DNA of 64,000 nt from Bacteroidia bacterium. Lineage in GTDB: Bacteria > Bacteroidota > Bacteroidia > Bacteroidales > Paludibacteraceae. How positions within the stretch are numbered: the first letter of the stretch is position 1; every line of letters starts with the position of its first letter. Positions 7,317 through 53,224 of this stretch are shown here, in pieces. A program made the translations under genes and the position numbers. The stretch spans positions 1 to 64,000 of the forward strand of contig SAAO01000017.1 in the NCBI GenBank assembly GCA_009929375.1. The letters run 5' to 3'. The notes beneath the pieces are model-generated. The model made no database searches. It saw only the letters and a program-made list of their open reading frames with translations, and was not told where the DNA came from.

Positions 7317-7907
7317 ATGAACACAAAACTGCAGGAATTAACCGACAAAATCTACCTCGAAGGTGTGGAAAAAGGAAACGCTGAAGCCAAAGCCATCGTT
7401 GAAAAAGCCGAAAACGAAGCGGCTGCTATTGTAGCAAAAGCAGAAAATGAAGCAGCTCAGATTTTAGCTCAGGCTCAGGCAAAAGCCGACGAACTGAGCA
7501 AGAACACCAAAGCTGAGTTGAAACTTTTCGCACAACAGTCGGTCAATGCCCTCAAAACAGAAATTACCAACCTCATCAACGGAACAATTGTAACCGACTC
7601 GGTGAAAGCTGCCACTTCGGACAAAGCGTTTATGCAGAAAACCATTGGTTCGCTCGTACAGGAATGGGCTAAAAACCAGAACGTAGTGGTTGAAGCTAAA
7701 GATGCGAAAGCACTCACTGATTATTTTGCTGCGAATGCAAAAGATTTGCTCGATAAATCGGTAAAAATTACACAGGCCAATAACATCAAAGCCGACTTCA
7801 GTATTGTTCCGCAAAAAGATGGCTACAAAGTGACTTTTGGTGACGAAGAATTTATAGCTTTCTTCAAGGAATTCCTGCGTCCCAAACTGGTGGAAATGTT
7901 GTTTTAA
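7317..7907 (+). CDS. atpE: V-type ATP synthase subunit E
   Basis: This is the peripheral-stalk subunit E of a bacterial V/A-type ATPase, linking the catalytic head to subunit I. The N-terminal 75 residues are an Ala/Glu/Lys-rich helix with heptad-like repeats (KAENEAAAIVAKAENEAAQ), followed by a globular C-terminal domain, as expected for the E/G stator. The 196-residue length fits. It is the first gene of the operon, 37 bp after the candidate promoter. No separate subunit G/H gene is seen in the cluster. Confidence 0.9.
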   Translation: MNTKLQELTDKIYLEGVEKGNAEAKAIVEKAENEAAAIVAKAENEAAQILAQAQAKADELSKNTKAELKLFAQQSVNALKTEITNLINGTIVTDSVKAATSDKAFMQKTIGSLVQEWAKNQNVVVEAKDAKALTDYFAANAKDLLDKSVKITQANNIKADFSIVPQKDGYKVTFGDEEFIAFFKEFLRPKLVEMLF

Positions 7908-7993
7908 ACCAAAACAATATGCTTTTCCGGAATGAAATAATCAGATCCGGCACCAAAAAGATCATAAATATCTTCTTTTAAACAAAATACAGA

Positions 7994-8827
7994 ATGAACT
8001 ATTACTGTCTGATAGCGGGTTTGCCCGACATGCATGCAGACGATACGAAAAATATTTCGTCGGTAACCGAAATAAAAGCTGAACTTACCGAACAACTATC
8101 GGTGAGCGATGCTGCTTTGCTGAAGTTACTGTATGCAGTGTACGACAACCACAATCTGCTCACCTGGCTCGACAACAGAGAAGCTGCTTTGCTTGCTGCC
8201 GGAAACCTCACTTCCGCTGACTGGGAACAACTCGTGGCACTGATACGTGAAAACGAATTGCCGAAAGACGATCGATTGTTGCCCTATGTGCACACATTCC
8301 TCAGCACATACACCGACGAGAATATTGTGAACAATTTCTCCCGCGAGGACTATCTGACGGGCTTGTACTATGAGCACGCCATGAAATGTGGTAACCGCTT
8401 TTTGCGCGATTGGTTTGAGTTCAATCTGAATGTAAACAATATACTCACAGCTATTACCTGTCGCAAACACGGCTTCGATCCGAAATTGATGATTATCGGA
8501 CAAAATGAAGTTGCTGCTGTTTTGAGACAAACAAATGCACGCGATTTTGGTCTTAACGGAATTTTCGAACATTTGGAAATACTGATTCGCATTGGCGAAG
8601 AAAAAGACCTGCTTGAGCGCGAGAAAAAAATTGATGCTCTGAAATGGAACTGGCTGGAGGAAAACAGCTTTTTCAACTACTTCGGGATAGAAAAGATTCT
8701 GGCTTTTGTGCTCAGGGTTGAAATGATAGAACGCTGGAAAATGTTATCGGTCGAAAAAGGTGCATCGATATTCAGAGATATGCTTGCCAATCTGAAACAG
8801 GACATCAAAATCGAGGACAACGAATAA
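7994..8827 (+). CDS. DUF2764 protein, subunit C-like component of the V-ATPase operon
   Basis: This 277-residue protein is of the DUF2764 family, which in Bacteroidota and Spirochaetes sits between subunits E and A of the V-type ATPase. It starts MNYYCLIAGLPDM, typical of that family, and is mostly helical with no membrane segment. By position and size it probably replaces subunit C, which couples the rotor to the K ring; this role is inferred. The cluster has no canonical subunit C or F. The gap to subunit A is 89 bp. Confidence 0.85.
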   Translation: MNYYCLIAGLPDMHADDTKNISSVTEIKAELTEQLSVSDAALLKLLYAVYDNHNLLTWLDNREAALLAAGNLTSADWEQLVALIRENELPKDDRLLPYVHTFLSTYTDENIVNNFSREDYLTGLYYEHAMKCGNRFLRDWFEFNLNVNNILTAITCRKHGFDPKLMIIGQNEVAAVLRQTNARDFGLNGIFEHLEILIRIGEEKDLLEREKKIDALKWNWLEENSFFNYFGIEKILAFVLRVEMIERWKMLSVEKGASIFRDMLANLKQDIKIEDNE

Positions 8828-8916
8828 CCATTTTTTATACTCAGGAATAAAACAAAATATTAAATACAGCCTGTTGCTTTTTTAGAACAACAGGCACATT
8901 GACAAAAGAAATTTTT

Positions 8917-10671
8917 ATGTCAACAAAAGGAAAAGTAAAAGGGATTATATCGAATCTGGTAACCGTGGAAGTAGATGGCCCGGTAGCTCAGAACGAAATT
9001 GCTTATATTGCACTTGGCAATCAGAAGCTGATGGCTGAAGTGCTGAAAGTAGTTGGAAACAACGCATTCGTACAGGTTTTCGAAAGTACCCGCGGTCTGA
9101 AAGTAGGCAACGAAGTGGAATTTATGGGTCACATGCTCGAAGTAACACTCGGACCCGGCTTGCTCTCGCGCAACTACGACGGACTGCAGAACGACCTCGA
9201 CAAACTGACAGGCGTTTTTCTGCAACGCGGCGAATACAACTTCCCCCTCGACACCGAAAAACTCTGGAGTTTTAAACCCATTGCAAAAGCCGGCGACAAA
9301 GTGGAAGCAGGATCGTGGCTTGGCGAGGTGGACGAGAATTTCCAACCGCACAAAATCATGGTTCCTTTTAACCTCGATGGTCAGTTTACCGTAAAATCGG
9401 TAGTTGCTGCCGGCGAATACAAAATTCTGGACAAAATAGCTGTGATTGTGGATGCCGACGGAAACGAAAAAGACATTACAATGGTACAGAAATGGCCGGT
9501 AAAAAAAGCCATCAACGTACATGCCGAAAAGCCACGTCCTTTCAAACTGCTCGAAACCGGTGTTCGTACCATCGACACTGCAAATCCGATTGTGGAAGGT
9601 GGAACCGGATTTATTCCCGGACCTTTCGGAACAGGAAAAACCGTACTTCAGCATGCCATTTCGAAACAAGCCGAAGCCGACATCGTAATTATTGCCGCCT
9701 GTGGCGAACGTGCTAACGAGGTAGTGGAAATTTTTGTTGAATTCCCCGAACTCGAAGATCCGCACACCGGTCGCAAACTCATGGAGCGTACCATTATTAT
9801 CGCCAACACTTCGAACATGCCCGTAGCATCGCGTGAAGCATCAGTGTATACAGCCATGACCATTTCGGAATACTACCGCGCTATGGGACTTCGCGTACTG
9901 ATGATGGCCGATTCCACTTCGCGTTGGGCGCAGGCACTCCGCGAAATGAGTAACCGTATGGAAGAGCTTCCCGGTCAGGATGCGTTCCCGATGGACCTTT
10001 CGGCCATTATTGCCAACTTCTACAGCCGCGCTGGTTATGTATATCTCAAAAATGGCGAAACAGGTTCTATCACCTTTATCGGAACAGTATCGCCCGCCGG
10101 TGGTAACCTCAAGGAGCCTGTGACCGAAAGTACAAAAAAGGCAGCACGCTGTTTCTTTGCACTCGAACAGGCCCGCGCCGACCGCAAACGCTATCCGGCT
10201 GTGAATCCGATTGATAGTTATTCGAAATATATCGAATATCCTGAATTTGAGGAATATATTTCAAAACGCATTTCGCCCGACTGGACTTCGAAAGTAAACG
10301 ATATGAAAACCATTTTGCAACGTGGTAAAGAAGTACAGGAGCAAATCAACATTCTTGGCGACGACGGTGTACCCGTAGAATATCACCTTACTTTCTGGAA
10401 ATCGGAAGTAATCGACTTTGTTATTTTACAACAGGATGCATTTGATAAGATTGACTCGGTTTGTCCGCTCGAACGTCAGGAATTTATGCTGAATCTGGTA
10501 ATGGATATTTGTAAATCCGATTTCAAATTCAATGGTTTTATTGATGTAATGGATTATTTCAAACGAATAATAAATGTTTGTAAACAGATGAACTACTCTG
10601 TTTATCAGTCGGAAAGTTTTGAAAAATATGTTTCCGAACTGAATAACATTCTGTCAGAGAGACGAAAATAA
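8917..10671 (+). CDS. atpA: V-type ATP synthase catalytic subunit A
   Basis: This is the catalytic ATP-hydrolysing or synthesising subunit of the V1 head. The Walker A loop GPFGTGKT is at about residues 235-242 counting from the ATG at 8917. The A-subunit-specific non-homologous insert (about residues 110-190) precedes it, and the ADSTSRWAQALREMSNRMEE region (about 330-350) follows. The length of about 584 residues is normal. An ATG at 8917 (MSTKGKVKGI) matches the family N-terminus better than the in-frame TTG at 8899. Confidence 0.96.
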   Translation: MSTKGKVKGIISNLVTVEVDGPVAQNEIAYIALGNQKLMAEVLKVVGNNAFVQVFESTRGLKVGNEVEFMGHMLEVTLGPGLLSRNYDGLQNDLDKLTGVFLQRGEYNFPLDTEKLWSFKPIAKAGDKVEAGSWLGEVDENFQPHKIMVPFNLDGQFTVKSVVAAGEYKILDKIAVIVDADGNEKDITMVQKWPVKKAINVHAEKPRPFKLLETGVRTIDTANPIVEGGTGFIPGPFGTGKTVLQHAISKQAEADIVIIAACGERANEVVEIFVEFPELEDPHTGRKLMERTIIIANTSNMPVASREASVYTAMTISEYYRAMGLRVLMMADSTSRWAQALREMSNRMEELPGQDAFPMDLSAIIANFYSRAGYVYLKNGETGSITFIGTVSPAGGNLKEPVTESTKKAARCFFALEQARADRKRYPAVNPIDSYSKYIEYPEFEEYISKRISPDWTSKVNDMKTILQRGKEVQEQINILGDDGVPVEYHLTFWKSEVIDFVILQQDAFDKIDSVCPLERQEFMLNLVMDICKSDFKFNGFIDVMDYFKRIINVCKQMNYSVYQSESFEKYVSELNNILSERRK

Positions 10672-10703
10672 ACCGGGAATAAAAACGAAAGAACATTAAT
10701 ATA

Positions 10704-12023
10704 ATGGCAACAAAAGCATTTCAAAAGATTTACACTAAAATCACTCAGATTACTAAAGCCACATGTTCGCTGCATGCAAGCAATGTGGGCAACGACGAGC
10801 TTGCTACCGTAAACGGCAAACTGGCTCAGGTGGTAAAAATCATGGGCGAAGAAGTGACATTGCAGGTTTTCGAAGGAACCGAAGGGATTCCAACAGATGC
10901 CGAGGTAATATTTTTGGGTAAAGCACCTTCGCTGAAAGTGAGCGAGCAATTGGCTGGCCGCTTTTTTAATTCCTTTGGCGACCCTATCGATGGAGGTCCT
11001 GAGGTGGAAGGCGAAGAGCGCGAAATTGGTGGTCCGTCGGTGAATCCTGTTCGTCGTAAACAACCCTCTGAGCTTATTGCAACCGGGATTGCAGGTATCG
11101 ACCTGAACAACACACTGGTTTCTGGTCAGAAAATTCCATTTTTTGCCGACCCTGACCAACCTTTCAACCAGGTAATGGCCAATGTGGCGCTGCGTGCACA
11201 AACCGACAAGATTATTCTTGGAGGTATGGGACTTACCAACGACGATTACCTGTATTTTAAAAACGTATTTAACAACGCAGGTGTACTCGATCGTATCGTG
11301 AGTTTTGTAAACACCACTGAAAATCCTCCGGTTGAACGTCTGTTGATTCCGGATATGGCACTTACCGCAGCGGAATACTTTGCTGTGGACAAAAACGAAA
11401 AAGTGCTTGTTCTGCTTACCGATATGACTTCGTACGCTGATGCGTTAGCAATTGTATCGAATCGTATGGATCAGATTCCATCAAAAGATTCAATGCCGGG
11501 CTCGCTTTATTCGGATTTGGCAAAAATCTACGAAAAAGCAGTGCAATTCCCCGAAGGAGGTTCTATTACCATTATCGCTGTAACCACGCTTTCAGGTGGC
11601 GACATTACGCACGCCATCCCCGACAACACAGGTTATATCACTGAAGGTCAGCTATTCCTGCGTCGCGATACTGATGTGGGTAAAGTTATTGTCGATCCGT
11701 TCCGTTCGCTTTCGCGTTTGAAACAGCTTGTAATTGGTAAAAAAACACGCGAAGATCACCCTCAGGTGATGAACGCTGCTGTACGTTTGTTTGCCGATGC
11801 GGCCAATGCGAAAACCAAACTCGAAAACGGTTTCGACCTTACCGACTACGATGAACGTACACTTGCATTTGCAAAAGACTACTCAAACAAACTGTTGGCT
11901 ATTGATGTAAATATTGATGCAACTGCCATGCTCGATGTGGCCTGGGATATGCTTGGCGACCATTTCAAACCTGCCGAAGTGAGTATTAAGCAGGAACTTG
12001 TGGATAAATACTGGAAAAAATAG
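10704..12023 (+). CDS. atpB: V-type ATP synthase subunit B
   Basis: This is the non-catalytic nucleotide-binding subunit of the V1 head and alternates with subunit A. At 439 residues it has normal family length. Recognisable parts are the N-terminal barrel, the central fold with LVSGQKIPFFADPD in place of a Walker A loop (as is usual for B), LVLLTDMTSYADAL, and the RMDQIPSKDSMPGSLYSDL arginine-finger region. It begins 32 bp after subunit A. After its stop a hairpin (TTTTGCTC at 12027-12034, GAGCAAAA at 12040-12047) has an A-run rather than a T-run on the coding strand, so it is not a normal terminator. Confidence 0.96.
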   Translation: MATKAFQKIYTKITQITKATCSLHASNVGNDELATVNGKLAQVVKIMGEEVTLQVFEGTEGIPTDAEVIFLGKAPSLKVSEQLAGRFFNSFGDPIDGGPEVEGEEREIGGPSVNPVRRKQPSELIATGIAGIDLNNTLVSGQKIPFFADPDQPFNQVMANVALRAQTDKIILGGMGLTNDDYLYFKNVFNNAGVLDRIVSFVNTTENPPVERLLIPDMALTAAEYFAVDKNEKVLVLLTDMTSYADALAIVSNRMDQIPSKDSMPGSLYSDLAKIYEKAVQFPEGGSITIIAVTTLSGGDITHAIPDNTGYITEGQLFLRRDTDVGKVIVDPFRSLSRLKQLVIGKKTREDHPQVMNAAVRLFADAANAKTKLENGFDLTDYDERTLAFAKDYSNKLLAIDVNIDATAMLDVAWDMLGDHFKPAEVSIKQELVDKYWKK

Positions 12024-12088
12024 TTCTTTTGCTCCTTTTGAGCAAAAAACAGCTGTTCTCAATTCTGATCACTTAGAGAATATTCTGT

Positions 12089-12739
12089 ATGTCAGACATT
12101 ATAAAACTCAGCAATATCGAAAATAAAATTATAGAAATCAGAGATCAACAGGTGATTCTCGATTTTGATGTGGCTGAGCTTTATGGGGTTGTTACCAAAC
12201 GTGTAAACGAAGCTATCAAAAATAATCCTGAGAAATTTCCCAAAGGATATGTTTTTGAACTTTCAAAACAGGAATGGAGACAAGTAAAAATTACGAAAAA
12301 CAACTCAAATATATCTGAATCTGATAGTTACAGCGATGTGGTCGAAAATTTCGACCAGTTCAAAAACAGAAAACACTCCTATGTGATTCCAAAAGCATTT
12401 ACCGAAAAAGGTTTGTATATGCTGGCAACCATTCTGAAAAGCGAAAAAGCAACTGAAACAACTATTGGTATAATCGAAACATTTACCAAACTAAGGGCTT
12501 TCACACGCGCTGTATCGGAAATAGTGGAAACAAAAGAGGAAAAAGTACAGAAATCGTTGATGAAGCAAAGTGCCGAAATAATGACTGAACTTCTTGGCAA
12601 CGACAAAGATGTGGCAGAAACAGAGACCAGTATTGAGCTTAATTTTGCAGTTTTAAAAATTAAGCACACAATAAAAAGAAAAAACAGCGATAACGAGGTT
12701 CACGACGAAGAACCTGTTTATATCACTATAAAAAAATAA
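12089..12739 (+). CDS. ORF6N-domain DNA-binding protein inserted in the V-ATPase operon
   Basis: The N-terminal 90 or so residues form an ORF6N (KilA-N-related) domain: KIIEIRDQQVILDFDVAELY, VTKRVNEAIKNNPEKFP and YVFELSKQEW are typical. The C-terminal half is helical and Lys/Glu-rich. ORF6N domains occur in phage antirepressor-like proteins and many mobile Bacteroidota genes; the function here is unknown. It lies between subunits B and D of the ATPase on the same strand, 65 bp after B and 23 bp before D. A small hairpin (GGCTT at 12741-12745, AAGCC at 12749-12753) follows it. Intruding into a conserved order suggests acquisition, but neither a transposase nor target repeats are visible. Confidence 0.85.
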   Translation: MSDIIKLSNIENKIIEIRDQQVILDFDVAELYGVVTKRVNEAIKNNPEKFPKGYVFELSKQEWRQVKITKNNSNISESDSYSDVVENFDQFKNRKHSYVIPKAFTEKGLYMLATILKSEKATETTIGIIETFTKLRAFTRAVSEIVETKEEKVQKSLMKQSAEIMTELLGNDKDVAETETSIELNFAVLKIKHTIKRKNSDNEVHDEEPVYITIKK

Positions 12740-12762
12740 AGGCTTTTTAAGCCGAAAGCTAT

Positions 12763-13368
12763 ATGGCAATACAATTTCAATACAATAAAACATCACTTCA
12801 GACGCTCGAAAAAAATCTGAAAATGCGTGTACGAGCCCTTCCTACAATTAAAAATAAGGAAAGTGCATTACGCATGGAGGTAAAAAGAGCCAAAGATGAC
12901 ATTAAAAAACTTGAAAGCGAGATTGAACAACGCATAGCTGCATACGACAAAATGCTGGCTTTGTGGGGAGAGTTTGATACGTCGTTGCTTCAGGTGGAAG
13001 ATGTAAAAATGAGTATCAAAAAAATTGCAGGTGTGCGTATTCCTGTGCTCGACGAGGTATTGTACAAAACAAAACCATTCAGTCTTTTCAACTCACCCAA
13101 ATGGTATGCCGATGGACTCACACAGTTGAAAGAACTTGCTCAGGTAGGAATTGAACAGGAATTTTATGCCAACAAACTTCGTTTACTCGAGTTTGCGCGC
13201 AAAAAAACCACTCAAAAAGTAAACCTGTTTGAAAAGGTACAAATTCCCGGATATCAGGAAGCAATTATCAAGATCAAACGATTCATGGAGGATGAAGAAA
13301 ACCTTTCTAAATCGTCACAAAAAATTGTGAAATCGCGTCAACAGAAACTGAAGGAGGTTGAGTTATGA
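12763..13368 (+). CDS. atpD: V-type ATP synthase subunit D
   Basis: This is the central rotor-shaft subunit D. It is 201 residues, almost entirely helical, with long antiparallel coiled-coil arms at the N-terminus (KTSLQTLEKNLKMRVRALP) and C-terminus, as in family members. Its stop overlaps the start of subunit I by 4 bp, indicating translational coupling. Confidence 0.92.
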   Translation: MAIQFQYNKTSLQTLEKNLKMRVRALPTIKNKESALRMEVKRAKDDIKKLESEIEQRIAAYDKMLALWGEFDTSLLQVEDVKMSIKKIAGVRIPVLDEVLYKTKPFSLFNSPKWYADGLTQLKELAQVGIEQEFYANKLRLLEFARKKTTQKVNLFEKVQIPGYQEAIIKIKRFMEDEENLSKSSQKIVKSRQQKLKEVEL

Positions 13369-15197
13369 TTGTAAAAATGAAAAAATACTCTTTCATTGTC
13401 TATTACAGGCAATACAACAGTTTTCTCGAGAAACTCAGAGAAACAGGTGTACTGCACGTAATTGAAAGACCTGAAGGTGTAGCAGAGAATGATGCTTTGC
13501 GAGAAAAAATGCAATTGGCAGCGAGAGTGAAAAATGCAATCAAACTGCTCGAAAAACACACTCCCGAAAAAACCGTTTATGCGCAGGGTTCCGGTGTGCA
13601 AAGCATTGACACGCTGCTTAAAGTTGAATCAGTTTTTGCAGAAAAGGAGAATCTTTGGCAAAAACTTCAACATGCTGAAAAGGAATATGAAAGCATGGAA
13701 GTATGGGGCGAATTCAGTCATAACAGATTGTCGGAACTTAAAACTGCCGGACTTACTGTAAAATTTTTCAGCTGTAATATCAAGCGTTTCAATCCGGAAT
13801 GGGAAGCCATTTACAACGCATTCGAAATTGACACTGTGGGAAGTACTGTTTACTTCATCACTGTTACCAATCCCGATACGCAGATTGACATTGATGCCGA
13901 TCCGGTAAAAATTTCGAAAAACACTGCGCCTGAAATACTTAAAATCATTGCTGATATTCAGAAAAAAATTGAAGAACAGAATGCTTTGATTGCTCAAACC
14001 TGTGTCAATGAGTACAACAATCTGAAAGCTTTTCAGGCCGGATTGTCCGAAAACATCGACATGGATAAAGTATTGCTCAGTAGCAACAGTGCAGTAGAAA
14101 ACAAAGTCATGCTGCTCGAAGGCTGGTGTCCCGAAGAAAGTGAACCTGCACTCAACGAACTGCTCGAAAAAGAGAATGTTTACTTCGAAACTTTTATACC
14201 AACCGAAGATGACAAAGTTCCTGTAAAACTGAAAAACAACAAATTTGCCCGATTATACGAAATGATTGGCGAATTGTACGACATGCCTAATTATCATGAA
14301 CTGGATTTGACTCCGTTCTTTGCTCCGTTCTACATGCTGTTTTTCGGATTGTGTCTTGGTGATGCAGGTTACGGATTAATTCTGGTTTTAGTTGCTTTAC
14401 TTGCTCGTAAAAAAGTGAAAGAAGCAATGCGACCAATCATGTCTTTACTGATATGGCTGGGCTCTGCTACTGTTATTCTGGGTACAGTGAGTGGTACATT
14501 TTTCGGATATAACTTACTCGAATCGAAAATTGAATGGCTTGAATCGTTCAAAGTAATAATGCTCGACTCAAATCAACTGTTTTACACAGCATTGATAATC
14601 GGGGTGGTTCAGATTATTTTCGGAATGATTATAAAAGCTGTAGGCTTGGTTCGACGATTTGGTTGGGCTGCTTCCTTATCCACATGGGGTTGGATAGTTG
14701 TAATCTTAGGTGCCGGAGGAACTTATGCATTGTCCTCTTTTGCCGGATTAGCACCGGAAATCAGCAAATGGGGATATATCATTTTCGGAGGTGCAGGCGT
14801 TCTTCTGATTTTCCTTCTGAATAATCTGAAAAGAAATCCATTGATTAATGTCGGAGCCGGATTGTGGGATACTTACAACATGGCTACAGGATTGCTCGGC
14901 GATGTACTTTCGTACATTCGTTTGTTTGCTTTAGGTATTTCGGGAGCAGTAATGGGGTTCGTATTCAACGACTTAGCAATTCAACTCAGTGGCGACATAC
15001 CTGTCATTAGTCAGATAGTAATGGTATTGATTATGCTTGTGGGACATGGCATCAACATTTTCATGTCGGGTCTCAGTGCCTTTGTACACCCAATGCGTCT
15101 TACTTTTGTTGAGTTTTACAAAAACTCAGGCTTCGAAGGTGGTGGAAAAAAATACAAACCATTTTCGTCTTACAAAGAGGAAGAATCACTATTTTAA
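13365..15197 (+). CDS. atpI: V-type ATP synthase subunit I (a-subunit)
   Basis: This is the membrane stator subunit that forms the ion half-channels against the K ring. The 610-residue protein has a cytoplasmic, coiled-coil-rich N-terminal half (about residues 1-310). The C-terminal half has about seven or eight membrane helices, with PFFAPFYMLFFGLCLGDAGYG and LGDVLSYIRLFALGISG, the latter containing the essential arginine region. MIVKMKKYSFIVYYRQYNSFLEKL is the usual start of this family. It overlaps subunit D by 4 bp and is followed after 51 bp by K. Confidence 0.95.
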   Translation: MIVKMKKYSFIVYYRQYNSFLEKLRETGVLHVIERPEGVAENDALREKMQLAARVKNAIKLLEKHTPEKTVYAQGSGVQSIDTLLKVESVFAEKENLWQKLQHAEKEYESMEVWGEFSHNRLSELKTAGLTVKFFSCNIKRFNPEWEAIYNAFEIDTVGSTVYFITVTNPDTQIDIDADPVKISKNTAPEILKIIADIQKKIEEQNALIAQTCVNEYNNLKAFQAGLSENIDMDKVLLSSNSAVENKVMLLEGWCPEESEPALNELLEKENVYFETFIPTEDDKVPVKLKNNKFARLYEMIGELYDMPNYHELDLTPFFAPFYMLFFGLCLGDAGYGLILVLVALLARKKVKEAMRPIMSLLIWLGSATVILGTVSGTFFGYNLLESKIEWLESFKVIMLDSNQLFYTALIIGVVQIIFGMIIKAVGLVRRFGWAASLSTWGWIVVILGAGGTYALSSFAGLAPEISKWGYIIFGGAGVLLIFLLNNLKRNPLINVGAGLWDTYNMATGLLGDVLSYIRLFALGISGAVMGFVFNDLAIQLSGDIPVISQIVMVLIMLVGHGINIFMSGLSAFVHPMRLTFVEFYKNSGFEGGGKKYKPFSSYKEEESLF

Positions 15198-27751: not shown

Positions 27752-27990
27752 GGGGCGTCTGCCCCAAACCCCGACTTACTTTTTGTCTTAACACAAAAAG
27801 TAAGCAAAAAAGTCAAGACTTCGGACGCTTCACTCGAAAAATTAGCGTTCGGAAGGCTCAAATCGTCCAAACTTGTTGAAGTTCGACAATTACTCTAAAA
27901 AAAAGAAGCTATTTGTACGAACTTCAACTTCAAACAAGGACGATTTTTAACCGCCTTCCTCTCTAATTTTTCGGCTCACCGTCCGAGGTC
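27752..27990. repeat. 239-bp structured dispersed repeat, copy A
   Basis: This fills most of the 417-bp gap between menC and menE. It starts with a GGGGC/GCCCC hairpin and then a 12-bp hairpin (CTTACTTTTTGT paired with ACAAAAAGTAAG). Its inner half is a long imperfect palindrome around CAAACTTGTTGAAGTTCG and CGAACTTCAACTTCAAAC. Copy B at 32622-32860 has the same length and orientation and differs at scattered positions. No protein is encoded. Confidence 0.85.
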
Positions 27991-32621: not shown

Positions 32622-32860
32622 GGGGCTTCCGCCCCAAACCCCGACTTACTTTTTGTCTTAACACAAAAAGTAAGCAAAAAAGTCAAGACTACGCCCGCTT
32701 CACTCGAAAAATTATCGTTCGGAAAGCTCAAATCGTCCAAACTTGTTGAAGTTCGATAATCTTTGAATAACCAAAAAGCTATTTACACGAACTTCAACTT
32801 CAAACAAGGACGATTCTTAACCGCTTTCCTCTCTTATTTTTCGGCTCATCGGACGAGGTC
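32622..32860. repeat. 239-bp structured dispersed repeat, copy B
   Basis: This is the second copy of the element at 27752-27990, in the same orientation and of the same length, in the 389-bp gap between the two lyase genes. It has the same hairpins (GGGGC/GCCCC, then the 12-bp CTTACTTTTTGT stem) and the same long imperfect palindrome. The two copies bracket menE and the exo-lyase gene, about 4.9 kb apart. Confidence 0.85.
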
Positions 32861-47658: not shown

Positions 47659-48903
47659 ATGAATAAAAACTCAAGTCCGTGGTGGAAAGCACCCTGGTCG
47701 TACAAAGAAAGTTTTGCAGTGGTAGGTGGACTTATAGCTTCCGGTATCATGCTGCAACTCAGCATTGGAAATTTCGATTACGAAATTATACGTTATCCGG
47801 TCAATATTTACCTGCTTATACTCACGCTGATTGCTGTTGCCGTACTTACATTGCGACACAAATCTCATTTATTTCAATGGCTGGCAGGTGTTCCGCTGAG
47901 CGTGGCCAATATCAGCGGATTGCTGCTTTACAGCATGATAATGGGACTCACCATGCAGGCTCCTGCAAATGCTGATGGACAATCAGCGCTTGGATTCGAC
48001 ACTGTAACACGCTCATGGCCTTTTGTGATCGTGTTTTATTTTACATTGTTGAACCTTAGTTGTGTTACATCACGGCGGTTGCTGAATTTCCATTGGCGCG
48101 ATTACGCCTTTTATCTCAACCATTTGGGTTTACTTGTACTGCTTTATGCCGGCGGATTTGGCGCTGCCGACCTGCGCCGCTACGTGATGCATGTGGAAGA
48201 AGGCGCTACCGAATGGCGCGTGTACAACGAAAAGGACGATGTACTTGAATTGCCTTTGGCCATTAAGCTGAACGATTTTTATATGGAGGAATATATCCCG
48301 AAATTAGCCATTATCGACCGTCGCACAGGCGATGCCATTCCGAACGGAAATCCGCAAATGTGGCAAATTGACACTACGAGAACCACTGCGAATATTGCAG
48401 GTTGGAATATTCAGCTTGAAAAATACATACACGAAGCCGTGCGTAAAAGTGACAGCACTTATCAGCAAATTCCCATGCCCGGCTCCTGCCCTGCTGCATT
48501 GGTAAAAGTTGAAAACAGCGCGACAGGCTTTAATCAGTCGGGTTGGATATGCTGCGGAAATTTTGCACAATTGTATATGACCATGCAACTCAACGACACG
48601 CTGAGCCTTGTAATGACGCGCCCCGAACCCAAACTTTTCCGCTCTGACATTGAAGTGTACACACCTGACGAAAAAACTTATCAGGCGCAACTCGAAGTAA
48701 ACAAACCCCTGCGCGTGGGGCATTGGATGATTTACCAGTACAGCTACGATGCCGATGCCGGAAAAGCCTCGGCCTACAGCAGTTTCGAGCTGGTTTACGA
48801 CCCCTGGATGACATGGGTGTATGTGGGAATCTTCATGTTCCTGGCAGGTTCAATATTTTTATTGTGGGAAGGTAACAAAAAAGCAAGGAGGAAAAACGCA
48901 TGA
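47659..48903 (+). CDS. ResB/Ccs1-like cytochrome c biogenesis protein
   Basis: This 414-residue membrane protein is of the ResB (Ccs1) type in system II cytochrome c maturation, which keeps apocytochrome cysteines ready and helps heme ligation. There are four N-terminal membrane helices (SFAVVGGLIASGIMLQLS, YLLILTLIAVAVLTLR, and two more through LGLLVLLYAGG), a large periplasmic domain (about residues 175-370) and a final helix (WVYVGIFMFLAGSIFLLW). GHWMIYQYSYDADAGKAS resembles conserved ResB sequence. It overlaps ccsA by 4 bp (ATGA). Assembly of the NrfH and NrfA hemes is the obvious need. Confidence 0.85.
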   Translation: MNKNSSPWWKAPWSYKESFAVVGGLIASGIMLQLSIGNFDYEIIRYPVNIYLLILTLIAVAVLTLRHKSHLFQWLAGVPLSVANISGLLLYSMIMGLTMQAPANADGQSALGFDTVTRSWPFVIVFYFTLLNLSCVTSRRLLNFHWRDYAFYLNHLGLLVLLYAGGFGAADLRRYVMHVEEGATEWRVYNEKDDVLELPLAIKLNDFYMEEYIPKLAIIDRRTGDAIPNGNPQMWQIDTTRTTANIAGWNIQLEKYIHEAVRKSDSTYQQIPMPGSCPAALVKVENSATGFNQSGWICCGNFAQLYMTMQLNDTLSLVMTRPEPKLFRSDIEVYTPDEKTYQAQLEVNKPLRVGHWMIYQYSYDADAGKASAYSSFELVYDPWMTWVYVGIFMFLAGSIFLLWEGNKKARRKNA

Positions 48904-49694
48904 ACATAAGTTGGGATCATTTTACAGCATTTGCCATTCCGGTTTTAATCAGCTGGATGCTGGCCATTATCACACTTTTTGCTACTAAAAAGCGCTGGCT
49001 GAATAAGATTTTTACGCTCGCAGGAATTGTTGGTTTTGCCACCTTTATCGTATTGTTGTGGATAAGCCTCGACCGCCCGCCCATGCGTACGATGGGCGAA
49101 ACACGGCTTTGGTACACTTTTTTCCTCTCTACCATAGGTTTTGTAATGTATGCCAAATGGAAATACAGCTGGATTCAGGCATTTAGCCTGGTGATGGCTT
49201 CGGTGTTTATTTTCATCAATATTTTCAAACCCGAAATACATTCCAAAAACCTGATGCCTGCATTGCAAAGCATTTGGTTTGTACCTCATGTTACCGCTTA
49301 TATTCTTTCGTATTCGTTTCTGAGTGCAGCTGCTATTTCCGCCGTCATTTTACTTTGGCAATATAAAAAACAAAAGGAAACAGCCACTTTGGAAGCTTTT
49401 ACCGACAACCTGGTTTATGTGGGTTTCGGGTTGCTAATGACCGGTTTGTTGATTGGTGCTATTTGGGCAAAAGAAGCGTGGGGACATTACTGGAGCTGGG
49501 ATCCGAAAGAAACCTGGGCATTTGTTACCGGAGCTTCGTATCTTATTTACATTCACGTGCGACTGCGCGAAAGCCGCCCGAAAAAATTCACGCTCTGGCT
49601 TATCATTTTCTCGTTTATTTTTCTGATGATTACCTGGAAAGGCGTGGCATATTTACCATCAGCTCAGGGAAGTGTGCACGTGTATTCGCAATAA
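48900..49694 (+). CDS. ccsA: CcsA/ResC heme-handling protein for cytochrome c assembly
   Basis: This 264-residue membrane protein carries the tryptophan-rich WWD heme-handling motif WGHYWSWDPKETWAF near residues 197-211. It has about eight helices and conserved histidines in helix loops (for example VPHVTAYILSYSF). In system II, CcsA exports heme and, with ResB, attaches it to CxxCH motifs. It starts within the last codons of the resB-like gene (4-bp overlap), so the two are translationally coupled. It is followed by the 11-bp tandem repeats and the left boundary of the mini-island. Confidence 0.93.
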   Translation: MNISWDHFTAFAIPVLISWMLAIITLFATKKRWLNKIFTLAGIVGFATFIVLLWISLDRPPMRTMGETRLWYTFFLSTIGFVMYAKWKYSWIQAFSLVMASVFIFINIFKPEIHSKNLMPALQSIWFVPHVTAYILSYSFLSAAAISAVILLWQYKKQKETATLEAFTDNLVYVGFGLLMTGLLIGAIWAKEAWGHYWSWDPKETWAFVTGASYLIYIHVRLRESRPKKFTLWLIIFSFIFLMITWKGVAYLPSAQGSVHVYSQ

Positions 49695-49720
49695 AAATTG
49701 CATAAATAACCAAATGACGG

Positions 49721-49753
49721 GATCTGTATAGGATCAGTATAGGATCAGTATAG
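49721..49753. repeat. Three tandem 11-bp repeats
   Basis: The unit GATCAGTATAG occurs three times (the first as GATCTGTATAG), followed by a partial GATGAG. The array lies between ccsA and the left island boundary. No function is evident. Confidence 0.7.
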
Positions 49754-49858
49754 GATGAGCTTATGATAAAGCGGGCTAAAACGTATTATTATAGAGTAAA
49801 ACTGTATATTTATTACATATTCAATCTCTGAATTCTATCATGTTAAATAAAAAAACAT

Positions 49859-49916
49859 AGAGAGTGCCTGTCGATACGAACAAGCACTCTCTGTGCATTT
49901 TGTCGGGATGACAAGA
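49859..49916. repeat. Left direct repeat of the tRNA-Pro 3' end (attachment-site-like)
   Basis: This 58-bp segment duplicates the right repeat at 52137-52193. The first 37 bp (AGAGAGTGC hairpin through GTG) are identical, a short C/A/T difference follows, and GTCGGGATGACAAGA is identical again. The latter is the minus-strand complement of the 3' end of tRNA-Pro. Only the 3' 15 nt of the tRNA are copied, so this is not a second tRNA gene. It marks the probable left end of the inserted segment. Confidence 0.85.
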
Positions 49917-50008
49917 CTCATTTTCAATTTAATTAGTCTTATAACACTCCTTAAGAACACAACTTTAATGTTGAATTCTTTTATTGTGTCATTTTGGAAC
50001 TTTATTTG

Positions 50009-50016
50009 TAAATTTG
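50009..50016 (+). promoter_or_regulatory. Candidate promoter of the abiH-like gene (TAAATTTG)
   Basis: TAAATTTG matches the -7 consensus and lies 114 bp upstream of the AbiH ATG. A TTTGG at 49993-49997 is closer than the usual -33 spacing. The 435-bp gap from ccsA to AbiH holds the tandem repeats, the left direct repeat, this element and AT-rich sequence, with no other gene seen. Confidence 0.45.
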
Positions 50017-50129
50017 CAGAATACTAACAAAAATAACAATGTATTTATAACGTCATTGCTGCAATCGTAATTTTAGCAACTATTACTGGTCTTTTGACTG
50101 GCGAGAAAAAAAATCTAATTCTAAAAATT

Positions 50130-51425
50130 ATGAATCGAATAATCCTTATCGGCAATGGTTTTGACTTGGCTCACGGGCTTGAAACGAGCTATTCACATTT
50201 TATTGATGACTTTTGGAAAAAGAGGATAACCTTGATTAAAGAAGTATTATCAAAAAATGGCATCTTTGCAGACGAGTTTATTACGGTAAAAAAGAAAAGT
50301 AATAATTTAATCCCATTTAAAACAGAGACGTATTCTGATTTAAAGAAGTTGAAAGACAGTTTAATTATAGATCTTACATTTAAGAACGAATTCTTCGAAA
50401 AAATCACAGAAAAAAGATATCAAAATTGGGTTGACATTGAAAATTTTTACTTTCAAGAGTTAATGAAGATAATTAACAACTATGAGTTTATCAAAAGATC
50501 AAAAAGAGAATACGAACTTAATATACAACAGGTGGTCCAGTTAAATAAAGAACTACAAGATATAAAAGTAGAACTTGAAATTTATTTATTATCAATAATC
50601 CATGTAGACCGATTTCAGATCACAAGAGATAATTTAATTACACAGCATATTTTTTCTACGATGCATTTAACTGATTTTACATCAGCTGGGTGTGATTCAA
50701 TCATTGATGAACAGGCGCATGTATACAAATCTGAAATTGAAGAATATAACGAAACAATCGCTAATAATCCAGAAGCCCGCAGAAATTACTTACTAAATAG
50801 ATTTTGCTTAGAACAACAAGATAGCACATATAAGTTTAATGATGAAAAGTGGGAAACCTTCACAAAAAAAAAGGACCAATTTCATAAATATATAGAATGT
50901 AAACCATCAAACTACTTGTTCTTAAACTTCAATTACACATCTACTGAAACAGAATATACGAACCTAAGAGAAAGTTCCTTCGTGGAGAAAGTTCCATCTA
51001 TTATTCATATTCATGGCGAACTTAACAAACAAAATAATCCTATCATATTTGGATATGGAGATGAAATTTCAAAAGATTACTTGAGACTAGAAGAATTTTC
51101 AGAAAACGAATTATTGAATAACGTAAAATCGATAGAGTATTTAAATACTGACAATTATAGACGACTTTTAGAATATATTGACTCTGACATGTACCAGATT
51201 TTTATCATGGGGCATTCGTGTGGCAATTCCGACAGGACATTGCTGAATACGTTGTTTGAGCACGAGAATTGTGCTTCTATAAAAGTGTATTATCACCAGG
51301 AAAGCCCTACAAAAGATAATTACAGTGACATTGTAAGAAACATCTCTCGAAATTTCAAAGACAAAAAACTAATGAGAGAAAGGGTTGTGAATAAAAAACA
51401 ATGTGAACCTCTAAGAAAACATTAA
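50130..51425 (+). CDS. AbiH-family abortive infection protein
   Basis: This protein of about 431 residues matches the AbiH family (bacteriophage abortive infection AbiH). The N-terminus MNRIILIGNGFDLAHGLETS is the family signature, with a Rossmann-like GNGFD loop. The later segments YLFLNFNYTSTETEY, IIHIHGELNKQNNPIIFGYG and IFIMGHSCGNSDRTLL follow the family order. A helical, Lys/Glu-rich middle lies between. AbiH proteins are reported to stop phage infection at the cost of the host cell; the biochemical activity is not established. The ATG at 50130 is preferred over a TTG at 50094. The gene is visibly AT-richer than its neighbours and lies inside the mini-island bounded by tRNA-Pro repeats. 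Confidence 0.88.
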   Translation: MNRIILIGNGFDLAHGLETSYSHFIDDFWKKRITLIKEVLSKNGIFADEFITVKKKSNNLIPFKTETYSDLKKLKDSLIIDLTFKNEFFEKITEKRYQNWVDIENFYFQELMKIINNYEFIKRSKREYELNIQQVVQLNKELQDIKVELEIYLLSIIHVDRFQITRDNLITQHIFSTMHLTDFTSAGCDSIIDEQAHVYKSEIEEYNETIANNPEARRNYLLNRFCLEQQDSTYKFNDEKWETFTKKKDQFHKYIECKPSNYLFLNFNYTSTETEYTNLRESSFVEKVPSIIHIHGELNKQNNPIIFGYGDEISKDYLRLEEFSENELLNNVKSIEYLNTDNYRRLLEYIDSDMYQIFIMGHSCGNSDRTLLNTLFEHENCASIKVYYHQESPTKDNYSDIVRNISRNFKDKKLMRERVVNKKQCEPLRKH

Positions 51426-51448
51426 TAAATTAAACCAACACAAAACAA

Positions 51449-51829
51449 ATGGAAGAATCAATTACTCAAATCATTACAATTGCCGGGATAGTTTATACGA
51501 TCTTCGGAATAGTTATTTTAGTTCGCTGGTGGAGAATGACATCGGATATACGAGATATCCGTGATCACTTACTGAATAGCAACTCTAAAAACGAGTCATA
51601 CAACCAGGAGATTAATAGCAGCAATAAAATTGACTCTAAAGCTGAACAAACTATTGCAGAAAATGCTGAAGTCCTTAATAAACTTATTGCAAAACTTAAA
51701 CCCAATCAATGCATTGTAAAAGTATTGGCTAATTCGAAAGTCGAAATCTGGAATATGTCAGATTGGGAAGAGGTTGTAAAAGCCGGTAGAAAAGATATGT
51801 TTCAAATGCTCTTCAATAATTACGAGTAA
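51449..51829 (+). CDS. Small single-pass membrane protein beside AbiH
   Basis: This 126-residue protein of unknown function has one N-terminal membrane helix (ITIAGIVYTIFGIVILVRWW), a basic-acidic linker (RMTSDIRDIRDHLLNSN), a polar, helical stretch (about residues 55-80) and a short C-terminal globular part (CIVKVLANSKVEIWNMSDWEEV). It begins 23 bp after AbiH on the same strand and is the only other clear gene in the mini-island. Similar small membrane proteins occur as stand-alone hypothetical genes in Bacteroidota, so the link to AbiH is by position only. Confidence 0.75.
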   Translation: MEESITQIITIAGIVYTIFGIVILVRWWRMTSDIRDIRDHLLNSNSKNESYNQEINSSNKIDSKAEQTIAENAEVLNKLIAKLKPNQCIVKVLANSKVEIWNMSDWEEVVKAGRKDMFQMLFNNYE

Positions 51830-52062
51830 TCAATTCTTTGAAACCATTTGATTTGTTTTTAACAAATTAGTCATTGTTCTGATATTTGAAACGAAGAAAA
51901 AACCAAAAGGAAACAAAATAATTTCGACCAACTACAGATATAAAAGAAACCCTTAAAATGGTAGAACCTCTTGATACAGCACTACAAAAAGGTCATTCAC
52001 AGCACAATAAATGGACACAGCTTATTTCCGTCTGATTAATTTTTTATGAGCCATACTACCGG

Positions 52063-52082
52063 ACATGTAAAGACATGTTTTT
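52063..52082 (+). terminator. Small hairpin with T-run at the right end of the island
   Basis: ACATGT (52063-52068) and ACATGT (52073-52078) form a 6-bp stem around AAAG, followed by five T. It probably ends the AbiH transcript. The stretch from 51830 to this site holds no convincing gene. Confidence 0.5.
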
Positions 52083-52136
52083 CCTTTTAAAATCCACTTA
52101 GTCATGGCTGTTTTCACCTATGAACCACAATAAAAC

Positions 52137-52170
52137 AGAGAGTGCCTGTCGATACGAACAAGCACTCTCT
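52137..52170 (-). terminator. Terminator of tRNA-Pro
   Basis: Arms AGAGAGTGC (52137-52145) and GCACTCTCT (52162-52170) form a 9-bp stem downstream of the tRNA on the minus strand, followed there by GTTTTATTG. The same hairpin is present in the left direct repeat. Confidence 0.7.
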
Positions 52171-52193
52171 GTGTTTTTGTCGGGATGACAAGA
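52137..52193. repeat. Right direct repeat at the tRNA-Pro 3' end (attachment-site-like)
   Basis: This 57-bp partner of 49859-49916 includes the tRNA terminator hairpin and the last 15 nt of the tRNA gene (through 52193). Together the two copies bracket 2.2 kb, as expected for insertion at a tRNA 3' end. No integrase gene is present between them. Confidence 0.85.
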
Positions 52194-52252
52194 TTCGAAC
52201 CTGCGACCTCTACGTCCCGAACGTAGCGCGCTACCAACTGCGCCACATCCCG
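52180..52252 (-). tRNA. tRNA-Pro(CGG)
   Basis: The minus strand folds as a cloverleaf. The acceptor stem is CGGGATG with CATCCCG, and the D arm contains AGTTGGTA. The anticodon stem is CTACG with CGTAG around the loop TTCGGGA, and the T arm contains GGTTCGAAT. The anticodon CGG reads proline codon CCG. The 3' CCA is not encoded (the sequence after the discriminator A is CAAAA). Its 3' end forms the core of the flanking direct repeats. Confidence 0.95.
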
Positions 52253-52467
52253 AGCAATTTTGCGGCTGCAAATTTACTGATTTTTTCATAAAATGATAAA
52301 AGAATTCGGCTTTTTTATTGGCAAAAATAAATTTTCAGTTTATCAGAAAAACAATGCAGATTACAATTATGTTACATTTTCGAGTCGAATGACATATAAA
52401 TGAAACACTTATGTCATCACGTCCTGTACAGAGGCAGCTTCGGCTCCTTATTATCGATATAAAACAG

Positions 52468-52475
52468 TATCTTTG
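52468..52475 (+). promoter_or_regulatory. Candidate promoter of the HAD phosphatase gene (TATCTTTG)
   Basis: TATCTTTG matches TAnnTTTG and lies 21 bp before the ATG at 52496. No TTG is seen at the usual -33 distance. Confidence 0.4.
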
Positions 52476-52495
52476 CACAAAAATTTCAATGCCTT

Positions 52496-53224
52496 ATGTT
52501 TGCAGATTCCATCTCTCATTATCAAAACAATACAAGTAAAGAACTCAACCCCAAAGCTATATTTTTCGATATGGACGGTGTGCTTTTCGACTCCATGCCC
52601 TACCATGCCACAGCATGGGTAAACGCCATGACCGACATAGGTATTCCGTTTACCGAACACGAAGCTTACATGAACGAAGGGCGCACGGGACATTCCACCA
52701 TCGACGGCGCTTTTAACCGCGAGTGGAACCGCAATGCCACTGAAGACGAGAAACAACAGATTTACAAAATAAAATCCAAATACTTCGAGGCCTATCCGCC
52801 TTCCCCGGTAATGCCTTTTTCGGCTGAATTACTCAGCAAAATCAAAGCACAGGGTTTGCGCATTTTCTTAGTGACCGGCTCAGGGCAACCAAGTCTACTC
52901 GACAGATTGCAGGTATTTTTCCCGGATGTTTTTGCTCCCGAAAACATGGTGACAGCTTTTGATGTAAAACACGGGAAACCGCATCCTGAGCCCTACCTGA
53001 TGGCCTTGGAAAAAGCAGGACTGGAAGCACACGAAGCTGTGGTGGTGGAAAACGCACCTCTTGGCGTAGAATCGGCTACTGCTGCCGGCATTTACACCAT
53101 AGCAGTCAACACTGGTCCGCTCGACGACAAAGTGCTGACCAACAGTGGTGCTGCTTTGGTATTCGACAGCATGAAAGATTTATTTGATAATTGGGAAACA
53201 TTTATAAATCAGTTCAAATCATAA
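52496..53224 (+). CDS. HAD-superfamily phosphatase, beta-phosphoglucomutase-like
   Basis: This 242-residue cytoplasmic HAD hydrolase is of subfamily IA. Motif I FFDMDGVLFDSMPYH holds the nucleophile aspartate and the general acid. FLVTGSG is motif II, the lysine lies in KHGKPHPEPY, and motif IV is in VVVENAPLGVESATAAG. A helical cap (about residues 40-100) follows motif I. Sugar phosphates are the likely substrates, but the exact one is unknown. The gene lies between tRNA-Pro and the porin gene, 13 bp before the latter. Confidence 0.88.
   Translation: MFADSISHYQNNTSKELNPKAIFFDMDGVLFDSMPYHATAWVNAMTDIGIPFTEHEAYMNEGRTGHSTIDGAFNREWNRNATEDEKQQIYKIKSKYFEAYPPSPVMPFSAELLSKIKAQGLRIFLVTGSGQPSLLDRLQVFFPDVFAPENMVTAFDVKHGKPHPEPYLMALEKAGLEAHEAVVVENAPLGVESATAAGIYTIAVNTGPLDDKVLTNSGAALVFDSMKDLFDNWETFINQFKS

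Follow-up and report, generated by a model that had tools for sequence, protein, structure and literature searches.

An AbiH-carrying 2.2-kb segment between copies of the tRNA-Pro(CGG) 3' end in a Bacteroidia genome, probably a tRNA island without an integrase

The stretch of DNA analysed here, referred to as the window, comprises positions 1 to 64,000 of contig SAAO01000017.1 from a bacterium of the Bacteroidia, and it contains a short AT-rich segment that adjoins the sole tRNA gene of the window, tRNA-Pro(CGG). The tRNA gene lies on the minus strand at 52179..52252, is reported as intact by ARAGORN and matches RF00005 with 65.7 bits. Its last 18 nt and the terminator-like hairpin behind it form one copy of a direct repeat (52129..52196, minus strand), and the distal copy, which likewise consists of the tRNA 3' end and a hairpin, lies 2.3 kb from the tRNA (49849..49919, minus strand), as established by alignment, folding and a genome search. 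The enclosed DNA (49917..52136, 2220 bp) carries two genes, an AbiH-family gene and a gene for a small protein, as the original prediction had described.

An alignment of the two copies of the repeat has 68 aligned bases, of which 65 are identical, and two short gaps (3 nt in total); the copies have exact stretches of 37 and 19 nt in common. Direct repeats of 57-58 bp with the tRNA tail and the terminator had been predicted for this locus; they are real and slightly longer, at 71 nt for the distal and 68 nt for the tRNA-side copy, and the observation is otherwise confirmed, except that the predicted right end at 52252 takes in the tRNA itself. The repeat begins in the T-loop of the tRNA and ends beyond the terminator hairpin; compared with the tRNA-Pro tail, it includes the last 18 nt with one mismatch and is exact for the last 15 nt. 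The hairpin of the tRNA-side copy has a folding energy of -29.8 kcal/mol (z -8.1), and that of the distal copy has z values of -6.3 on the minus and -6.1 on the plus strand, so that each hairpin could stop transcription arriving from either side. When the distal copy is searched against the whole 3.87-Mb genome, it matches only itself and the tRNA-side copy (E 6.9e-21), and a dispersed repeat is rejected on this basis. The only RNA family detected at 49700-52300 with E values up to 0.1 is tRNA.

An intact tRNA gene with a cognate 3' fragment downstream in the same orientation is the mark used by Islander, and it is the layout expected when the tRNA gene has been regenerated and a fragment of it displaced. 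Joining the flanks by script, with the segment removed, yields an intact tRNA-Pro. In a scan of the tRNAs of the same genome (49 rows for 44 tRNAs by Rfam, some rows duplicated, with downstream reads from 393 nt upward), a 3'-end copy is present only at tRNA-Pro(CGG) and at a tRNA-Gly. The latter, an exact 18-nt copy of the 3' end of tRNA-Gly(GCC), is located 66-83 nt after its tRNA on another contig (L169, G000:C50) and may mark the former site of an island since lost.

A cassette with a small open reading frame (ORF), set between repeats of about 70 nt that contain hairpins, is also what an integron-type gene cassette would look like, with the hairpin repeat serving as attC. The attC core motifs, RYYYAAC and GTTRRRY, are absent around the tRNA-side copy; near the distal copy they occur once, immediately beyond the repeat. 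Since the repeat is a near-perfect hairpin joined to a tRNA tail, an integron cassette is considered highly improbable.

The composition of the enclosed DNA differs clearly from that of its surroundings. Its guanine-plus-cytosine (GC) content is 30.6%, whereas the flanks, taken over 2 kb each, have 44.1% and 42.2%, which bears out the predicted AT-richness, and only two of 618 sliding 2.2-kb windows have a GC content as low. The AbiH gene is the lowest-GC ORF compared (30.1%), the 44 others having a mean of 42.5%, a standard deviation of 2.7 and a minimum of 34.4%. Additionally, AbiH and the small gene are the most deviant in codon usage of the 28 genes compared, AbiH by a narrow margin and the small gene owing in part to its short length. 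The AT-rich DNA is thus probably foreign in origin.

The AbiH gene (50130..51425, plus strand) encodes 431 residues from an ATG at 50130 to a stop at 51425; an in-frame TTG at 50094 would extend the protein to 443 residues. The protein matches PF14253 with 98.8 bits (E 7.5e-28), threefold the curated cut-off of 30.9, and therefore belongs to the family; its best full-length relatives are 41-45% identical, and C-terminal pieces reach 61%. In an alignment with four relatives, the MNR start and the motif GNGFDLAH are invariant. The PADLOC AbiH model gives a weak match of 19.7 bits confined to residues 15-67. The AlphaFold model is poor, with a mean predicted local distance difference test (pLDDT) score of 53.6, and no function was drawn from it; a search of solved structures with the model gave no match with an E value of 0.001 or lower, a SIR2 chain being listed at E 0.29, and a sequence profile search likewise gave no match. 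The protein is predicted to prevent the multiplication of phages. Inhibition of one phage genus, by a mechanism not established, is reported for an AbiH of Streptococcus thermophilus (PMC12322248).

The second gene (51449..51829, plus strand) starts 23 nt after AbiH and encodes a protein of 126 residues that, by eye, has a hydrophobic N-terminus followed by a soluble tail. Its family matches are weak and all lie below the curated cut-offs. It is present in one of 48 genomes of the genus, namely its own, and elsewhere in three weak matches among 393 genomes of the order. A fixed pairing of AbiH with this protein is rejected as a rule, because the partners were not found beside each other's homologues: tblastn with the small protein gave no match at the 29 short-flanked AbiH loci L065-L093 or at L125-L129, a search that did not cover the later AbiH loci L195-L226 and L271-L290, and no AbiH match was found beside the three weak homologues of the small protein (L130-L132).

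No match to the integrase family PF00589 is found inside the segment, and the ten matches in the genome all lie elsewhere. The two cargo genes match no recombinase family (frames of up to 41 residues outside the genes were listed and not scanned), and neither gene is of a conjugation or mobilization kind. A search for AbiH in 50,697 phage records gave no match, and a search in 72,556 plasmid records gave a single partial match, at 32%; with the DNA of the segment as the query, the plasmid records gave no match. In viral contigs, a method suited to close relatives confirmed no relative of AbiH or of the small protein, and two patterns taken from the repeat gave no exact match. A phage or plasmid origin is rejected for want of a convincing match in these searches.

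The arrangement is probably an integrase-less island, inserted site-specifically at a tRNA, that resembles the cis-mobilizable elements (CIMEs) of streptococci. A site-specific recombination event at the 3' end of tRNA-Pro(CGG), from the T-loop onward, would have brought the DNA into the chromosome, so that the tRNA kept its whole tail and terminator and a second copy of both ended up 2.3 kb away. In favour of this reading are the position, orientation and uniqueness of the repeat and the low GC content, and also, as described below, the patchy occurrence of AbiH, the lack of tail copies at the related loci and the comparable repeats of integrase-bearing islands at tRNA-Pro(GGG). The recombinase missing from the element may have been deleted later or may have acted in trans during the insertion, and the remaining two-gene cargo may have been retained because defence pays. 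The prediction is upheld in part, for an integrase-less defence island at a tRNA 3' end, which may be either passively mobilised or integrase-trimmed, the two options that it offered.

The segment may alternatively be a living minimal hitchhiker, which never had an integrase of its own and is still moved in trans by integrases of other elements that use the same tRNA end. The long exact stretches retained in both copies of the repeat are consistent with this, as are two AbiH-only segments without an integrase in other genomes, described below, and a tyrosine integrase gene on the same contig (L194:13953-15353, contig C44, at about 77.95-79.35 kb), some 26 kb from the island, beyond which ORFs continue almost to the contig end. 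However, no second copy of the element and no matching helper were found in the genome, and the two repeat patterns lack an exact match in viral contigs. With the small protein restricted to one genome of the genus, continued movement in trans appears unlikely.

The tRNA-Pro(CGG) locus was compared across the genus. The tRNA-region query matched 45 of 48 genomes, in some of which only the tail of a different tRNA-Pro was hit, and the comparison used the 30 loci with long matches, which come from 29 genomes. No copy of the tRNA tail is present downstream of tRNA-Pro(CGG) at any of the 30 loci, where at least 4.9 kb of downstream sequence is readable in 24 and 199-1929 nt in the other six, and where the scan might not detect copies well below about 14 nt. 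Short matches of 10-13 nt in L105, L111 and L116 fall after the tRNA and outside the tail. The possibility that the left repeat is a conserved tandem tRNA relic, which had been raised as an alternative, is rejected accordingly. No integrase was flagged downstream of the tRNA at these loci with a model built from three integrases. In L121 and L122 (G009:C378 and G018:C37), which have the same gene order, a tRNA-Pro(CGG)-like gene ends in TCATTCAGAT in place of TCATCCCGAC; its tail is lost or replaced, and a search of the 48 genomes with the exact 15-nt tail pattern gave no extra copy on these two contigs.

The neighbourhood of the tRNA is conserved on one side. A gene which we take to encode a HAD-type phosphatase (52496..53224, plus strand), located beyond the tRNA on the right, is found at tRNA-Pro(CGG) in 29 of the 30 loci, the exception being L095, which indicates that this side is conserved. 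Downstream of the tRNA, a conserved small gene, presumably encoding a lipoprotein-like product, occurs in 22 of the 30 loci; it is the first ORF of at least 80 residues in 21 of them and is preceded by four other ORFs in L103. In the genome studied here, the small gene is located on contig C53, and the new neighbour of the tRNA is an nrf/ccs operon, represented by a cytochrome c assembly gene convergent with the tRNA (48900..49694, plus strand; presumably ResC/CcsA-like). An operon which we assume to be V-ATPase-like lies 10-14 kb downstream of tRNA-Pro in L107, L109, L112, L114 and L119, and in the window it is found at 7317-15197, inverted and 37 kb from the tRNA (52179-53224 region), which is a sign of rearrangement around tRNA-Pro(CGG). 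A phosphoglucose isomerase query gave no match in this genome; the query lacked a positive control, and no conclusion is based on it.

These observations raise the question of whether a chromosomal rearrangement, or homologous recombination with DNA of a sister lineage, produced the second tail and terminator, with AbiH coming along. The change of neighbours speaks for this explanation, and so do the T-loop bases: the copies differ by an A in the tRNA and a G in the distal copy, and both variants occur in the genus (GAGTC at 17, GAATC at 12 and another sequence at one of the 30 loci). Nevertheless, the locus of the moved small gene on C53 contains no tRNA-Pro tail, only chance matches of 11-12 nt, and rearrangement alone predicts neither a repeat that starts in the T-arm nor a foreign composition. 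An origin of the repeat by rearrangement or homologous recombination is therefore regarded as quite improbable.

Because the neighbourhood is rearranged, the exact empty site of this lineage (the ccs operon, a single copy of the repeat and the tRNA) was not seen among the loci of relatives. At the 29 cytochrome c assembly loci of relatives (L005-L033), many of them distant paralogues, no tRNA-Pro was found within flanks of about 1.5 kb. The comparison for empty and filled sites that had been proposed at the outset was thus answered in part, since relatives offer sites without the island, though not the exact empty site.

Islands with integrases are found in the genus at a second proline tRNA, tRNA-Pro(GGG). 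On contig C187 of G004, this tRNA is followed by a 7.8-kb island with exact 58-bp repeats, and on contig C5 of G066, by a 22-kb island with exact 87-bp repeats that, by eye, include a hairpin behind the tRNA. In both islands, a tyrosine integrase gene lies on the inner side of the distal copy, directly next to it. In G027, two tail copies lie 73.5 kb apart on contig C10 (37801 and 111334) and possibly bound an island of that length. tRNA-Pro(GGG) is an integration hotspot in the genus (L227, L228/L229 and G027:C10), and the islands of G004 and G066 indicate that repeats which start inside tRNA-Pro, and perhaps pass its end, are the trace that integrase islands leave here. The T-loop is one of the sublocations within tRNA genes at which integrases act. 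Because the repeat in the window starts later, in the T-loop, the recombinase of this island probably differed from the integrases at tRNA-Pro(GGG).

AbiH itself is patchily distributed, being present in 38 of 250 genomes of the family and, with the profile at E 1e-8, in 25 of 396 genomes of the class, the present genome included in both counts. A tRNA lies within the stretch at three of the 37 AbiH loci read with wider flanks, and among the class-level matches with 1.5-kb flanks (28 loci, L243-L270, own locus included), only at the locus studied here. The same cargo had been suggested to recur next to other tRNA genes, and AbiH was indeed found once with a tail copy and once without. In the first case (L213:5318-6919, G101:C51), a lone AbiH gene has tRNA-Lys(CTT) on one side and, 1.5 kb from the tRNA, a 14-nt copy of the tRNA 3' end on the other, with a separate hairpin after this copy; the segment has 24.5% GC, compared with 33-35% in its flanks, and no PF00589 match was found on the contig. 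In the second (L217, G006:C20), AbiH with 26.6% GC begins about 170 nt after tRNA-Val(TAC) on the same strand, and no copy of the tRNA-Val 3' end was found. At L204, a tRNA-Phe is oriented away from AbiH.

A further lone AbiH gene (L254:1319-2636, G810:C9; 25.4% GC) is enclosed by perfect 31-bp direct repeats of a terminator-like hairpin. The copy that adjoins a gene presumed to encode a single-strand-binding-protein-like product is part of an intact hairpin, and the distal copy is half of a hairpin and folds poorly. An imperfect 98-nt repeat on both sides of AbiH at L222, one of the AbiH loci that score in the enrichment test given below, resembles a dispersed repeat, and this locus was not counted as an island. 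It is tempting to propose that AbiH recurs as an element of 1.3-2.3 kb with one gene or one operon that lacks a recombinase, has direct repeats at its borders consisting of a tRNA 3' end or a terminator, and is moved in trans by the integrases of other elements. Its cases would be the island in the window (tRNA-Pro, 71/68 nt), L213 in G101 and L254 in G810; the proposal is tentative and, on balance, doubtful. No paper on AbiH-only tRNA islands was seen among the results of the literature searches made.

Several points weigh against the interpretation of the segment in the window as a site-specific tRNA island. The copies of the repeat differ at several positions, which implies either that the event is not recent or that the two sites were never identical, and the repeat could have arisen with the rearrangement around tRNA-Pro(CGG). 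No integrase remnant, helper of matching specificity or excised form turned up. Finally, AbiH loci as a class show no significant enrichment of flanking repeats. For exact repeats of at least 14 nt, with 58 AbiH loci entered and those with short flanks dropped, repeats within 800 bp occur at four of 50 AbiH loci and six of 215 control ORFs (p 0.098), or at three of 49 when the window is excluded (p 0.37); within 1500 bp, the counts are 4/45 and 17/191. Flanking repeats are also lacking around several AbiH genes that have unrelated chromosomal genes as neighbours.

Other repeats are present in the window. Between the end of the ccs operon and the distal copy of the island repeat, 11-bp units are arranged in tandem (49720..49763, plus strand), two of them exact copies of GGATCAGTATA and two near copies. 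A 239-nt direct repeat (27752-27990 and 32622-32860, 90%) flanks a menE-like AMP-binding gene and a gene for a PcRGLX-domain protein and looks like a dispersed repeat.

The island shares its general plan with several known systems. Streptococcal CIMEs, like this island, lie at the 3' end of a target gene between two flanking attachment (att) sites, enclose only cargo and lack recombination and transfer genes (PMC7563491, PMC5704250); by analogy, the 71/68-nt repeats would act as att sites. The classical CIMEs of S. salivarius have lengths of 1.2-13 kb, and at tRNA-Lys(CTT) in 303 S. agalactiae genomes, 215 CIMEs occur alone or in accretion (PMC7563491, PMC5704250). In contrast to these, the present host is distantly related, the cargo is a single AbiH operon, the island was not found in tandem with an integrative and conjugative element (ICE) or an integrative and mobilizable element (IME), and an origin by deletion from either would be conjectural; no remnant is seen in the segment.

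The regenerated tRNA gene and displaced 3' fragment at the ends are those of Islander tRNA-gene islands, but Islander requires an integrase between them and would miss the AbiH island (PMC4383910). I55-type elements and E. coli hotspot islands likewise hold defence genes at the end of a tRNA or tmRNA gene, and the former also have direct repeats; I55-type elements, however, carry a tyrosine integrase and up to 39 ORFs, and the E. coli islands of unclear mobility usually have an integrase or recombinase gene (PMC12595487, PMC10121019). Tycheposons are also tRNA-bounded cargo elements, of 4-200 kb, whereas the AbiH island falls below this range and has no recombinase (PMC10872708). Many, but not all, of the tandem ssrA islands of Dehalococcoides carry an integration module (PMC3146451), and they may include integrase-less precedents at an RNA gene. 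A search for an integrase-less genomic island at a tRNA found no paper in the literature collection that was searched.

The island probably belongs to a known kind of stripped-down, integrase-less islands, and the possible recurrence of AbiH as a minimal hitchhiker is a further lead. Islander and similar tools locate tRNA islands through the integrase, and they skip segments that consist of a tail copy and cargo without an integrase; defence genes that move as hitchhikers, or that outlast a lost mover, are therefore undercounted. If the AbiH-only segments of the three genomes can move, they would be very small defence-carrying units that can be found from the tRNA end alone, and if AbiH does recur as such an element, these segments would form a class of minimal hitchhikers with defence cargo, invisible to integrase-based island finders.

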